From: Chloroflexota bacterium | Lineage (GTDB): Bacteria; Chloroflexota; UBA11872; VXOZ01 | NCBI GenBank assembly: GCA_026710945.1 | Contig: JAPOQA010000027.1 | Coordinates: forward strand, 1-64,000 | Direction: 5' to 3' | Length of the DNA: 64,000 bases | Shown: positions 27,344-62,259 of the stretch, piece by piece | Numbering within the stretch: the first letter of the stretch is position 1 | How the letters are laid out: every line of letters starts with the position of its first letter | Made by a program: the position numbers and the translations under genes | The notes under the pieces: generated by a model | Seen by the model: only the letters and a program-made list of their open reading frames with translations | The model's database searches: none | Told to the model about the DNA's origin: nothing

Positions 27344-27763
27344 TTACGGGAACAGCTTCAGCACAGCTATCACAATGCCGGACACCACGCCGGCAAGCGC
27401 GGAAATCGCCACAAGAAGCTGGAACGTCTGCTTCCCCAGTTGCTCCGCAATGTGCTTTCTCAGCCGCTCTTCCATCACCTGCATATCCGCCCGAATGGCC
27501 TGATCCGAAGCTTGCAGGTCGGCTCTGAGGGTTTGCAGGTCGGCTCTGAGAGCCTGTTCCGAGGCTTGCAGGTCGGCTCTGAGAGCCTGTTCCGAGGCTT
27601 GCAGGTCGGCTCTGAGAGCCTGTTCCGAGGCTTGCAGGTCATCATTGGTCGCCGCGTCCCCGCGCGCTTCGCTAACAGCATCGATCAGGGCTTCTGCTTG
27701 ATTCTCACTGAAGCCCGCGCCCGTCAGCGTCTTTACCGCTTTGTGGGTGTCGAACAATGCCAT
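27344..27763 (-). CDS. Coiled-coil membrane protein with hendecad repeats (CCDC90/DUF1640-like)
   Basis: The 139-residue product starts A-L-F-D-T-H-K-A-V-K-T-L-T-G-A-G-F, the typical N-terminus of CCDC90-like proteins, then E-N-Q-A-E-A-L. Residues about 42-90 are three nearly exact copies of the 11-residue unit L-Q-A-S-E-Q-A-L-R-A-D plus partial copies. After that comes an amphipathic helix and a membrane anchor (about 112-135). Eleven-residue periodicity favours a right-handed or straight coiled-coil stalk. The ATG at 27763 has GGGA eight bases upstream. The function is unknown. Confidence 0.8.
   Translation of the reverse strand: MALFDTHKAVKTLTGAGFSENQAEALIDAVSEARGDAATNDDLQASEQALRADLQASEQALRADLQASEQALRADLQTLRADLQASDQAIRADMQVMEERLRKHIAEQLGKQTFQLLVAISALAGVVSGIVIAVLKLFP
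27503..27640 (-). repeat. 33-base tandem repeat inside the coiled-coil gene
   Basis: Units of 33 bases (11 codons) occur about 3.5-4 times, with the shared core GGTCGGCTCTGAGAGCCTGT. One six-codon half unit lies at the downstream end. Near identity suggests recent expansion or a slippage-prone tract. Confidence 0.85.
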
Positions 27764-28489: not shown

Positions 28490-29016
28490 TGAACTGCCGG
28501 CCTCCTGTGCCGGTCCCCGCTAACGCGCTTAGGCCGGATGGTGTTTCCACCTGGTTCGTGCAAGTTCCCGTTCGTGCTGAGCTTGCCTGTCCTGAGCCTG
28601 CCGAAGGGTCAAAGTATTGACAGCGAGACGCGTCGGCACGTCAAGATTCGCTTCTGGCAACACATCTCCTCGCCAGTCGTGAACGGGACTATAGTGCTCT
28701 GTAAGAGCGCTTTCTTACCATCGTTGGCCCTGCGACGGGCCTGTACTGAGCTTGCCGAAGTGCTCAGGGCGAACGGTTGTGGGTTGTGCCATTTGCCCTG
28801 CGACAGGCCTGCACTGAGCTTGCCGAAGTGCTTAGGGCGAACGGTTGTGGGTTGTGCTACTTGCCCTTCGACAGGCCTGTACTGAGCTTGCCGAAGTGCT
28901 CACGGCGAACGGCTATGAGCTTTTGCAGACAGAGAGCCTCATTAGGCGGATAGGTCTACGCTGCTTCTGCCAGTCAGTTGTTCCCGCAAGAGTTCATTGC
29001 CCCAACCGATTGATCG
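28490..29016. repeat. Intergenic region containing 68-base tandem repeats
   Basis: There is no gene. Three tandem copies of a 68-base unit occupy about 28728-28918, carrying the CTGAGCTTGCCGAAG and GGGCGAACGGTTGTGGGTTG segments. A single related copy lies near 28580-28610. Confidence 0.75.
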
Positions 29017-53528: not shown

Positions 53529-54005
53529 ATGGAACTAAGAAACGAGTCCTACCCTCCACTTGATTCGTCAATTCTTCCCCGTGCTCCCGCGCAGCGCTGG
53601 CACTCGGTAAGCAGGCGCAGCGACCTGCGGCCCTTATCTCAAGGCCGCAGCAACAGGATATTTCTTGCTCTCGGTATCGGCGTCGTTGTGTTGCTGCTAG
53701 GGGTTGGCGCAGTGTGGCTCGTCAGTCAGGTCCTGGCGTCCAATGGTCCTGCGCCGGCCATACAAGACACCGAAGTTGCTCCCGTTACACCTGTTGCACC
53801 CACTACCAACGCCCCTACCAATGCGGCTACGGCGGAAGTACCTGCCGCGCCTGAATTCCATGTCGTGCAGCCGGGCGAGGTGCTGACTGCCATTGCGAGG
53901 AAGTATAATACGACTGTGGAATACTTAGCCGAATTGAATAACATTGAAAATGTTGACTCGATCCGGGTTGGTCAACGACTGCGACTCGTGCCGGAAGAGC
54001 AATAA
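53529..54005 (+). CDS. Membrane-anchored LysM protein
   Basis: The 158-residue product has a cytoplasmic N-terminus of about 40, one membrane helix (about 42-65), a Pro/Thr/Ala-rich linker and a single LysM domain (about 108-152: V-V-Q-P-G-E-V-L-T-A-I-A). LysM binds peptidoglycan or chitin-like sugars, so the protein likely tethers the membrane to the wall or a matrix. An alternative TTG start lies at 53511. It opens the four-gene run to 59374. Confidence 0.85.
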   Translation: MELRNESYPPLDSSILPRAPAQRWHSVSRRSDLRPLSQGRSNRIFLALGIGVVVLLLGVGAVWLVSQVLASNGPAPAIQDTEVAPVTPVAPTTNAPTNAATAEVPAAPEFHVVQPGEVLTAIARKYNTTVEYLAELNNIENVDSIRVGQRLRLVPEEQ

Positions 54006-55542
54006 TGCTCGGACGAAGCGTGCATGTGCCAAGTGGAGCATTTGCCACAGCCTGCTCGCACTCTTCCTAGCATTCGTGCTCTGGCTGAGTCTTACCAGTG
54101 TTGCCGGCGCGGCGTCGGGCCCGCCGTGGCATTCGGCGCCCGGTGTACTGTCGGGAGAAGTGCTGGCTACCTGGCAGCTTTGGGAAAAGGCGCTTGAGGC
54201 CGAGGCATGGACGCAGGATGATCAGTCGTGGGTCCCAAGCAGCCTGCCCTGGCTAATTACCGCGCATCCCACCACCCCTAATGCGGCACTGGCTGCCGGT
54301 TCCATGGGACTGCACCGCACCGTGGACGGCGGAATGACGTGGAGCCAACTGCCAGGAATCGTCGCCCCGGTCATCGCAATTGCTTACAAGGCGGGTAATC
54401 CTCAGATAATCTTCGCCGGGACAGAATTGGACGGCAACTACCGTAGCGAAGACGGTGGAGTTTACTGGCGCCGCATTAACGCCGGTCTCCCCCGGGACCA
54501 ACTCGGCAACGTGGTGGGCGCAGTGGCGCTGGCTGCCGACCCAGCCTTGCCGAATACGCTCTTTGCCGCGACGGCGTCGGCGGGAGGCGTTTACCGCTCG
54601 CAAGACGAGGGTACCACCTGGCACCTGGCGAATAGCGGGTTGCCGGAGGAGACGATCTCTAGCATTGCAATTTCTGAGAGCGGCTCACCTGCGCTCTATG
54701 CGGCTACGCCGAGTGGTCTGTACCTCTCAAGTGATCGTGCGGGCGCGTGGTCGCTAGTCGGCACGCTGCCAATTGAGACGTCCTTAGAACTGCTCCTGGA
54801 ACCCGGTGCTCCGGGGTTGCTGCTGTTGGTGGCCGAGGACACGATCTATCGCTCGACAAACGGTGGGCTTACCTGGATTGACCTCGACCTGCCGGCTGAT
54901 ATGCCGCCCATTCGCGATGCAGTTCTTGTGAGCGGCGCAGAATTTGCCTACCTCTTCGTCGTCAGCGCGAACGGTCCACATTGGTTACGGCTTACGCCCG
55001 CTTCGCCGCAATCGCCCCCACAGACGGAATCGGACACGGCTTCATATATCGATGTTACCGGGCATACCATTCGCGAACCTTTTCTCTCATTCTTCAATTC
55101 CCACGGCGGCGTAGCGCGGTTCGGCTATCCGCGAACCGATGCCATCAGCGAAGACGGCAGCACCGTACAATACTTTCAACGGGCTCGGTTGGAGATCACG
55201 GAGGAGGAAGCCGGCGAGCGAGTGGTGCAGTCTCAGCTAGGCAGGGCCCGGAGCACGGGTGTGGACCTATCTGTTGCCTCCACACAGTCGGACTCGAATG
55301 GAACACAAACGCAGTATGCGGTGGACCAGGTGTTTGCAAACTTCTATGCGAACAACAATGGACGTGAAGCGTTTGGCGTCCCGATTGCTCCGGCGGCGGA
55401 CGAAGCGCAAATCAACGGCGCTATCCTGTATACACAATACTTTGAATTTGCTCGACTCGAACACCATCCCGGCGCCGCAGCACCAATTCTGTTGGGGCTG
55501 ATTGGCGATGAATACTTGCTGCAGAAGGGCTGGCTGGAGTAA
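53950..55542 (+). CDS. Secreted BNR/propeller-like protein with two LGFP-like modules
   Basis: An export helix (about 27-50, L-L-A-L-F-L-A-F-V-L-W-L) is followed by a beta-propeller of about six repeats ending in blades like G-V-Y-R-S-Q-D-E-G-T-T-W and S-T-N-G-G-L-T-W, the Asp-box form seen in sialidase/photosynthesis-factor proteins. The C-terminal 160 residues hold two modules, F-F-N-S-H-G-G-V-A-R-F-G-Y-P-R and F-Y-A-N-N-N-G-R-E-A-F-G-V-P, related to the G-Y-P module of the protein at 20028. The start is uncertain: only TTG 53944 and ATG 53950, inside the LysM gene, fit before the hydrophobic segment. The ligand is unknown. Confidence 0.7.
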   Translation: MLTRSGLVNDCDSCRKSNNARTKRACAKWSICHSLLALFLAFVLWLSLTSVAGAASGPPWHSAPGVLSGEVLATWQLWEKALEAEAWTQDDQSWVPSSLPWLITAHPTTPNAALAAGSMGLHRTVDGGMTWSQLPGIVAPVIAIAYKAGNPQIIFAGTELDGNYRSEDGGVYWRRINAGLPRDQLGNVVGAVALAADPALPNTLFAATASAGGVYRSQDEGTTWHLANSGLPEETISSIAISESGSPALYAATPSGLYLSSDRAGAWSLVGTLPIETSLELLLEPGAPGLLLLVAEDTIYRSTNGGLTWIDLDLPADMPPIRDAVLVSGAEFAYLFVVSANGPHWLRLTPASPQSPPQTESDTASYIDVTGHTIREPFLSFFNSHGGVARFGYPRTDAISEDGSTVQYFQRARLEITEEEAGERVVQSQLGRARSTGVDLSVASTQSDSNGTQTQYAVDQVFANFYANNNGREAFGVPIAPAADEAQINGAILYTQYFEFARLEHHPGAAAPILLGLIGDEYLLQKGWLE

Positions 55543-57046: not shown

Positions 57047-59374
57047 TTGCCTAGGCGTTTCCCCAACCCGTCCGGCGGCCGGTGGGGATGGTTGTGGGAC
57101 ATCGTTATACTTGCGGTTCTCATGTACGGTAACGTGCTACTCTGGGGCAATCTTGGCGTTGGGTGGGATGACGTTGGTTCGGTCATTGCTGAGGCGCGAA
57201 TTGCGGCTGTCTCAATTGCGCAAGACGTTGCTAGTTTTGCCCTCCCGCATGCATCACCCACCCCTTCAGTTGGGCCGGCCGCCACGGCCGCTCCTTCTGT
57301 TGCGTCAACTGATTCCGTTTCTCCCACTAAATCAGTTCTATCCGTCTCTCTGCGGGACTTCAAGAACGGCCCCTGGCTGGAGCAACAAAACCCTCGGTTG
57401 GCTTTCGCCATAAAAGGGCTTGGCTGGATAGGTGACGGTATCGACGGCACGGAGGCCGAGGTAATCCAGGACCTACTCTACATCGCGTTCGTAAGCCTTC
57501 CTGTCACTGCATCTCTCGTCTCCTTGGGCTGGGTACAGGACGGTATCGATGAAGTAGAGGCTGGAGCATTTCGCTGGTTGAGCAATATGAATGCCGCGGA
57601 GGTTGTAGAGTCTGTCGTTGCTTTGGGCTGGGTTCAAGACGGCATCGATAACATAGAACTGAAGACTATTGAGAACCTGTCCTACATAGCGTATGAGGAC
57701 TCGGTAGTTGCAGCGTCCGTCATTTCCCAGAGTTGGGTCCGGGACGGCATCGACGACGTTGAGTCCGGAGCGATCCGCTGGCTGACCAACATTAAGGCCG
57801 TCGAGGTGGCCTCGTCAGTTCTCTCTTTGAGTTGGGTGCAGGACGGCATTGACGATGTTGAGGTGCAGGGCATTGAGAATCTGTCTTACATTGCATATGG
57901 GGACACGGCAGTTGCTTCCTCTATCCTCTCACTAGGCTGGATTCAGGACGGCATCGCAGAAGCGGAGATCGACCTAATCGAGAGTCTTGCTGCGCTAGCA
58001 AGAGACACGGAAGCGGCCTTGTGGATCGTGGATATGCCGTTTCTCGCAAGCATCGAGCCGCCCGATATTGCGGCCGCCATGTCACTGCGCCGGCTTGCGG
58101 CCTTAGAGCCGGAGGCGTTCGCGAGATTGATGTCCCATCCTGCACTGCGAGATGGCATATCGAACGATACTGCACACATTGTCGCTACGCTGTATGGCGT
58201 AGCAAGAACGAACTCCGACCTGATCGATGTCTTGCTCGACCCCGCCAGAGTTTCTCTGGAACAGCGCACCGTCACGCTGCCGTTGGCGGGCGAGGTTGTT
58301 CTAACGATCATACGTACGGGTCCACCAGGCGTAGAGAAGTCAATGGAATTGCTGGAGCGTTCCGTGCGCCGCGCTGAAGAGTACATGGATGCGCCACTGC
58401 CGACCAACTACGTCGGCCTGCTCTATGAAAACGCCGTCGTCGGTGACGTCGCTGGTACGAATTTTGGCACGCACATTGCCATCCTGTCTAAGTACGACGT
58501 CGACGACGGCGGTCATGAAGCGGCGTACGCCAGCCATATAAGCGCTCACGAAGTAGCGCACTACTACTGGAGCGGCAACGAGGACTGGGTAGATGAGGGC
58601 GCGGCGGAATTCATGGCCTTAGTCATTGATGGCGCGCGGCTCGATCGACCGATGGGTGTTGCCAGATACCCTTGCGCCTATGCCGACTCTATTGCCGATC
58701 TGAAGAATCTTGACATCGAGCGGGGCGATATTGAGTTTTCCTGTAACTACGCACTCGGGGAACGGCTATTCGCAGATCTCCATCGCGCACTGGGCAATGA
58801 GAAATTCCGAGAGGGGTTCCGCGCCCTCTACTCGGCGTCGGAAATGGAAGACGACGCCGATGAACGCCGCGGCACGTCAGTGGGGATCGACCATATCAGG
58901 GCGGCCTTTCGCTCGGAGGATGGAGCGGAAAGTTCCGTCATTGCTCGCTGGTACGACGGAACCAAACCCTACGACCTCTCCCGTCTTGATGCCAGTCCCG
59001 CGGATCCGCGCTTGCCCAGCATCAAGGGGCGTATCGAAGAGGCTTACATATCTACAGAAAAGGACGGCCCCCCAGTGTCCGGTTTTGCTGTGCAGGATGT
59101 TACTGACCGGGTGTCTCTCGTCTTGAAATACTCGTACAATGTATCGGGAGGCTCGCATAGCATACCCTTGGAGATCGTGGAGTACTACAAGGACGGATTC
59201 GAATACAGGCGCCGGAGCGGGGAGTTGACTGCAGAAGCAAAGTACATCGGCGGGACGAGGTGGTATTCGGTCGGGCCGCCGCCGGCGCAAAGGTGGGCGC
59301 CCGGGCGCTATTGGGTCTATGTGTATGCGGGCGAACGGAAATTAGCTGAAGTGCCATTCGAGGTCACATTCTGA
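57047..59374 (+). CDS. Membrane-anchored metallopeptidase with W-x-x-D-G-I repeats
   Basis: The TTG start is set by GGGGA seven bases upstream, directly after pyk, and gives 775 residues. One membrane helix (about 12-34) is followed by a Ser/Pro/Thr-rich linker. Then come about eight repeats of 33-35 residues (about 124-400), six with clear L-G-W-V-Q-D-G-I-D or close forms, alternating between two helix variants. The last two are diverged. The peptidase part has H-E-V-A-H (about 500-504) and W-V-D-E-G-A-A-E (about 513-520), where the Glu of W-x-x-E-G is the likely third zinc ligand. A C-terminal beta domain (about 665-775) follows. The target is unknown. Confidence 0.75.
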   Translation: MPRRFPNPSGGRWGWLWDIVILAVLMYGNVLLWGNLGVGWDDVGSVIAEARIAAVSIAQDVASFALPHASPTPSVGPAATAAPSVASTDSVSPTKSVLSVSLRDFKNGPWLEQQNPRLAFAIKGLGWIGDGIDGTEAEVIQDLLYIAFVSLPVTASLVSLGWVQDGIDEVEAGAFRWLSNMNAAEVVESVVALGWVQDGIDNIELKTIENLSYIAYEDSVVAASVISQSWVRDGIDDVESGAIRWLTNIKAVEVASSVLSLSWVQDGIDDVEVQGIENLSYIAYGDTAVASSILSLGWIQDGIAEAEIDLIESLAALARDTEAALWIVDMPFLASIEPPDIAAAMSLRRLAALEPEAFARLMSHPALRDGISNDTAHIVATLYGVARTNSDLIDVLLDPARVSLEQRTVTLPLAGEVVLTIIRTGPPGVEKSMELLERSVRRAEEYMDAPLPTNYVGLLYENAVVGDVAGTNFGTHIAILSKYDVDDGGHEAAYASHISAHEVAHYYWSGNEDWVDEGAAEFMALVIDGARLDRPMGVARYPCAYADSIADLKNLDIERGDIEFSCNYALGERLFADLHRALGNEKFREGFRALYSASEMEDDADERRGTSVGIDHIRAAFRSEDGAESSVIARWYDGTKPYDLSRLDASPADPRLPSIKGRIEEAYISTEKDGPPVSGFAVQDVTDRVSLVLKYSYNVSGGSHSIPLEIVEYYKDGFEYRRRSGELTAEAKYIGGTRWYSVGPPPAQRWAPGRYWVYVYAGERKLAEVPFEVTF
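57418..58245 (+). repeat. W-x-x-D-G-I protein repeat array
   Basis: Six clear and two diverged units of about 100-105 bases each lie within the metallopeptidase gene. Units alternate between a W-L-S-N type and an E-N-L-S-Y-I-A-Y type, so the real period may be a pair of about 68 residues. Confidence 0.8.
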
Positions 59375-61888: not shown

Positions 61889-62259
61889 GCGGGGATGCCG
61901 ATCGTGCACTTCGTGGGTGAATGAGACGGGCATCGGTTGTTGCCGCTATCTTTTTACTTTGCGAGTGATTCGAGAGTGCAGGATTAAGATGGATTCCCGC
62001 TTTCGCGGGAATGACGGAAAAGAGTTTGTGGGAATGACGGAAAAGAGTGCACGTGAAATGGCGGAAGAAAGTTCACGGGCAAGACGGAGAAGAGCTCACG
62101 GGCGTGACGGAAGAGAGTTCACGGGAATTACGGATGAGAGCTCACTTTCTGGGTAATACCGGACCGTCCGCAATCACGTAGAGCGCAATCAGGTAGAGCA
62201 GGAACTGAACCGGGCACACAAGGCTAAGTCGCCGTCTGTGTGTTTACAAGGAGGTAACT
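61889..62259. repeat. Intergenic minisatellite between rpiB and tal
   Basis: There is no gene. About seven degenerate units of about 24 bases lie at 61986-62155, built around GGAATGACGGAAAAGAG. They start at a hairpin GATTCCCGC/GCGGGAATG that also occurs near 13340. A short frame crossing it encodes only repeat (M-D-S-R-F-R-G-N-D-G). Confidence 0.75.

Follow-up and report, generated by a model that had tools for sequence, protein, structure and literature searches.

Why does a predicted zinc peptidase from a Chloroflexota bacterium carry an array of unfamiliar repeats between its putative membrane anchor and its catalytic domain? The question is raised by a gene at positions 57,047–59,374 (+) of the 64,000-nucleotide stretch of DNA analyzed here, which we call the window. 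An earlier note, made from the letters alone, had suggested an extended solenoid holding a protease away from the membrane.

Gene and Domain Order

The reading frame is open throughout and encodes 775 amino acids, with the stop codon at 59,372–59,374. It starts 2 bases past the stop of a pyruvate-kinase-like gene with a TTG codon, whereas the nearest orthologue (L002; relatives carry such labels throughout) has CTG, and the first codon is thus likely but not certain; the N-terminal residues of the two proteins are conserved from the proposed start onward. The window genome contains a single copy of the gene.

From the N to the C terminus, and with all features on the forward strand, the protein begins with a hydrophobic putative anchor or uncleaved signal sequence (residues 13–35; 57,083–57,151), recognized by eye from the translation and conserved in L002. 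This is followed by a Ser/Thr/Pro/Ala-rich linker (residues 66–100; 57,242–57,346), which varies in length among the relatives and has low confidence in the structure model, and by a conserved N-cap, LRDFKNGPWLEQQNPRLAFAIKG (LRDFxNGPWLEQ; 57,350–57,418), found also in L002–L004 and in L005, a protein consisting of repeats only. Six strict and two degenerate repeat units then lead to a gluzincin-type peptidase domain and to a C-terminal domain (59,018–59,371), common to L002, L003, and L156, which is beta-rich in a low-confidence model. Reading by eye for export or anchor signals gave the hydrophobic stretch in the window protein and lipobox-like sequences in L004, L005, and L097, and from these sequences the 775-residue peptidase is probably surface-anchored.

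Other features of the window were recorded alongside the gene. A secreted protein encoded at 53,944–55,542 (+) has BNR/sortilin-like propeller repeats and, after these, FGYP-type segments that resemble the N termini of some of the peptidase relatives. Positions 27,498–27,640 and 28,727–28,912 hold, in that order, a perfect 33-bp tandem repeat of 3.3 copies and a 68-bp array of 2.7 copies (92%); the TGAGCTTGCCGAAG-like core of the latter is similar to a dispersed REP-type element. A 23-bp tandem array (62,002–62,145; 6.2 copies, ~74% matches) lies downstream of an RpiB-like gene.

An Alternating Repeat with a Predicted Solenoid Fold

The strict W-[IV]-x-D-G-I motif occurs six times, at residues 127, 162, 195, 230, 263, and 298, giving spacings of 35, 33, 35, 33, and 35, and is followed by two degenerate versions, MPFLASIE at 330 and HPALRDGI at 364. 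The corresponding units are unit 1 (35 residues, a cap-like B form; 57,419–57,523), unit 2 (33, A form; 57,524–57,622), unit 3 (35, B form; 57,623–57,727), unit 4 (33, A form; 57,728–57,826), unit 5 (35, B form; 57,827–57,931), unit 6 (34; 57,932–58,033), unit 7 (34, degenerate and of the MPFL type; 58,034–58,135), and unit 8 (35, degenerate; 58,136–58,240). Unit 7 is conserved in most of the family, and unit 8, which adjoins the peptidase, is the counterpart of the sole unit found in the smallest members. The count of about eight repeats of 33–35 residues, six of them strict, made in the earlier note is thus confirmed.

The note had also seen the units alternate between two forms and suggested that they might pack as pairs; the alternation is real, and the units do pair. 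Within the window, the A forms (units 2 and 4) are 58% identical and the B forms (units 3 and 5) 66%, and the alternation is visible in the DNA as an A/B pair repeat of 204 nt, present at 57,509–57,712 and again, with 70% identity, at 57,713–57,916. A relative with 12 units, L004, includes five A/B pairs, and its units match those of the window by form: the identity is 53% between A forms, as opposed to 36–41% with the other form, and 54% between B forms, as opposed to 41–45%. Permutation of the form labels supported the alternation in L004 (P = 0.004, 11 units); on the window's five units alone, the same permutation cannot give a P value below 0.1. Close relatives differ mostly by whole pairs, and the orthologue L002, despite a peptidase ~80% identical to that of the window, has only three strict units. 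The copy-number differences in L002 and L004 indicate that the array grows and shrinks in the window's clade, mostly by A/B pairs. The alternation is limited to this clade; L158, for example, has a run of uniform 35-residue units. Three genes, with 33 units among them, give the consensus L-x-W-V-[QR]-D-G-I-[DE]-x-x-E-x-x-A-I-x-x-L, with the W and the helix-starting E/D conserved in 33 of 33, the D in 32, and the G in 30.

We modeled the repeat with AlphaFold2 from an alignment of segments of the window protein, L002, L003, L004, and L005. The outcome was a confident helical solenoid (mean pLDDT 88.4, pTM 0.82), two of the five models being much weaker (61 and 55), and not the disorder that would have spoken against the earlier proposal. 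The array is thus predicted with high confidence to be an alpha-solenoid, its tandem helical units forming a continuous superhelix. The suggestion of a two-helix solenoid stands as to the solenoid but not as to the number of helices, as the model divides each unit into three helices, of which the first is short and covers WVxD, the second is the long helix A, and the third is helix B, of ~8 residues. Helix A is predicted to span 16 residues in the 35-residue units compared with 11–12 in the 33-residue units. A model of the full protein from four alignment rows was poor (pLDDT 44.6), and the peptidase domain was left without a confident model.

The earlier impression that the repeat lies outside the named families agrees with our searches. 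Neither Pfam nor NCBIfam has a model for it, and there was no credible match to a Pfam repeat family for the full protein, for 16 unit pairs, or for repeat-rich relatives. Neither the full protein nor the repeat profile picked up anything meaningful among PDB sequences, and a Foldseek comparison of the solenoid model with PDB and viral structures gave no match at E ≤ 0.001, the best of the nonsignificant PDB matches being a designed nanofiber (E = 0.20) and a TAL effector (E = 0.48, TM-score 0.19). Other candidate identities were rejected. A BRCT_2 match on L004 (28.1 bits) contained no single passing stretch and was judged an artifact of the repeats, as was an Apo-CIII score on the same protein, and an EF-hand or dockerin reading of D-G-I-x-x-x-E fails because the motif is one residue too short.

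A Predicted Gluzincin outside Family M1

The peptidase domain (58,241–58,963) was recognized with a profile of intact family members and an alignment to M1 enzymes. As the earlier note had read it, HEVAH is followed by WVDEG, and the zinc-peptidase residues appear intact. HEVAH (residues 501–505; 58,547–58,561) contains the predicted zinc ligands and general base, and Glu517 of WVDEG (residues 514–518; the Glu codon at 58,595–58,597) is the predicted third ligand, aligning with the WLNEG of M1. In the 23 intact members, H501, E502, H505, and E517 are invariant, as are the motif W and G. Tyr568 (58,748–58,750) is nearly invariant and aligns with the YFKG of M1 as the counterpart of its catalytic tyrosine, and the nearly invariant Cys543 (58,673–58,675), part of a conserved Cys pair, may form a disulfide with Cys566 (58,742–58,744). 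Between the window protein and L002, dN/dS in the peptidase is about 0.19.

By its HExxH and downstream Glu, the window protein is, in sequence, an MA-clan gluzincin. The profile of the 23 intact members matched M1 aminopeptidases over ~160 residues (E = 1.8e-8), covering HExxH, W-L-x-E-G, and Y-x-x-G. Membership in M1 itself was considered and rejected. The distance from HExxH to the Glu is x11 in the window protein, with a range of x11 to x16 among the relatives read, and not x18, the place of GAMEN is taken by AGTNFG, without a Glu, and the PF01433 scores of 11.2 bits for the full window protein, 14 for the domain, and 25.1 for the best relative are under the gathering threshold of 27.7. 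By the spacing and the missing GAMEN Glu, defining features both, the enzyme is a gluzincin but not M1, and from the absence of that Glu we infer endopeptidase rather than aminopeptidase specificity.

Distribution, Architectures, and Loss of Catalysis

The earlier note had called for a profile search to see which lineages carry the repeat, and among Chloroflexota genomes the family has a patchy distribution in two classes. The full protein matched 23 of 400 genomes of the phylum, nearly all from two families of the window's class, to which the repeat profile likewise points. In a second class, 10 of 197 genomes carry the family, 8 of these 10 also having a repeat profile match. Non-family matches at E-values of 1e-6 to 1e-13 were apparently ordinary M1-type enzymes and were left uncounted. 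No relative was found in the viral contigs and the phage and plasmid collections searched.

The relatives contain from 1 to about 12 units. The open frames of the smallest members, L167 (373 residues) and L026 (486 residues), consist of one unit and the peptidase; against a profile of array units, this single unit scored higher than all 500 shuffles, with a modest 7–10 bits. At the other extreme, L005, with 21–22 units, and L097 are putative lipoproteins consisting of repeats only. The array is C-terminal to the peptidase in L104 (3,586–6,732, −), long and uniform in L158, and accompanied by C-terminal leucine-rich repeats in L159 and L166, the latter also with CARDB. Several genomes have tandem arrays of paralogues. 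The single unit beside the catalytic domain in the smallest members suggests that the array probably grew from such a unit, although loss of an array could produce the same sequences. Two N-terminal domains were seen among the relatives. The repeat-peptidases L156, L158, L161, and L166 of the second class have a tandem domain, VWRSVANPxxLYxSTRxxGGxW, with no Pfam match, and the f2 family relatives, including L014, L017, and L032, share a domain TITGGDTPEPDDGFAVTN...GYPISQRW..., which has no Pfam match in L014.

The HExxH is absent from 13 paralogues, which keep the peptidase-plus-array architecture. A tree built from 34 peptidase domains requires at least four changes of the catalytic label, and the catalytic residues have thus been lost at least four times independently. 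The dN/dS was 0.185 and 0.202 in two pairs of dead genes, indicating that these genes are maintained and not decaying, and 0.284 between the active L009 and the dead L015. Several independent losses of catalysis, under selection where tested, offer a ready test of a scaffold role without cleavage.

What the Array May Be For

The reading that we prefer, and to which we give an about even chance of being right, is an exported gluzincin zinc endopeptidase with a solenoid that, besides being a spacer, takes hold of partners and positions them. The protein would be exported and membrane-anchored, to judge by the anchor or lipobox-like sequences, the low-complexity linkers, and the conserved Cys pair. 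Its N-terminal alpha-solenoid of three-helix units of ~34 residues would change in length by duplication and loss, the last one or two units being part of the catalytic module and the preceding ones a scaffold capturing a substrate or partner. The gluzincin domain would cut as an endopeptidase, and in the window protein the same scaffold would also carry it outward from the membrane. The relatives with repeats only, with a C-terminal array, or with a dead peptidase suggest that the rod probably has a binding role in addition to that of a spacer; as the solenoid has no significant likeness in PDB, the argument for binding is one of analogy to other alpha-solenoids. The apparent anchors of L005 and L097, on the other hand, are consistent with a structural rod and count against binding.

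Alternatively, the array could be inert, a rigid rod that keeps the protease clear of the cell wall on its outer side and whose length is tuned by A/B pairs. Such a stalk fits the window protein, where the array lies between anchor and peptidase, and agrees with the conserved unit positions being structural ones and with unit numbers that vary, mostly by pairs, while the L002 peptidase stays ~80% identical. The proposal of a protease held off the membrane survives for this protein but is not supported as a general purpose, given that some putative lipoproteins consist of repeats only (L005 and L097), that the array of L104 follows the peptidase, that dead paralogues retain the units and the architecture, and that the units adjoining the peptidase seem to belong to the catalytic module; the low-complexity linker, moreover, is already there and could be the spacer. 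We regard a stalk and nothing else as somewhat unlikely. By another reading, the solenoid is an active-site cap or regulator that folds back over the cleft and sets substrate entry, as domain IV does in M1. M1 aminopeptidases have an alpha-solenoid, the helical domain IV, next to the gluzincin domain, and the kinship to them, the position of units 7–8 directly before the catalytic domain, their conservation in most members, and the one unit retained in the smallest would all be in keeping with a cap. Yet unit number ranges widely among otherwise similar enzymes, repeat-only forms exist, and the solenoid is N-terminal here but C-terminal in M1. We regard a cap as improbable, the least favored of the readings; it could hold for units 7–8 only.

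An adhesin-like or recognition protein with a secondary peptidase, its array diversifying to vary the surface repertoire, perhaps where the cell meets a host or prey, is also unlikely in our estimation. It draws on the tandem paralogue arrays of several genomes, the loss of catalysis on at least four independent occasions, under purifying selection in the pairs compared, the LRR and CARDB fusions, and the expansion of eukaryote-like repeat proteins reported in sponge-associated Chloroflexi (PMC6306507), but the window genome has one copy with an active site that is intact and constrained. Beyond our preferred reading of a partner-capturing endopeptidase, we tentatively entertain a broader idea, rather short of an even prospect: that an uncatalogued three-helix repeat, born by duplication of a gluzincin's own N-terminal helical module, became an independent surface module of Chloroflexota, a lineage-specific recognition repertoire carried by active enzymes and selected dead ones, at either end of the peptidase, or alone. 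The smallest and largest members do suggest growth of the solenoid from the enzyme's own domain, by pair duplication in the window's clade.

Comparison with Known Systems

Two known kinds are involved, the alpha-solenoid repeat and the gluzincin. To the former the locus would add a repeat for which we found no Pfam, NCBIfam, or PDB counterpart and to the latter a family outside the M1 definition. With TPR, PPR, HEAT, ARM, Pumilio, ankyrin, and TAL repeats it shares units of 33–35 residues, here predicted to stack in a helical solenoid, but its W-x-x-D-G-[IV]-x-x-x-E signature is unlike theirs. M1 enzymes of the MA clan (PF01433; ERAP1/2, LNPEP, and LTA4H) have in common with it the HExxH, the Glu of W-L-x-E-G, the Tyr of Y-x-x-G, and an alpha-helical solenoid; they differ in having HExxH-x18-E and the GAMEN Glu, where the window protein has x11 and no such Glu, and the window's solenoid is N-terminal and variable in length. 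The BSP family of plants and bacteria (PF04450) shares the gluzincin-type motif, and five members of our family match it (best E = 0.0018), but these matches are weak, most members lack one, and there is none for the window protein. The repeat proteins of sponge-associated Chloroflexi (PMC6306507) resemble the present family in being expanded repeat proteins, two of the relatives here having LRRs, and differ from it in that the repeat is another one and the window protein is predicted to be exported.
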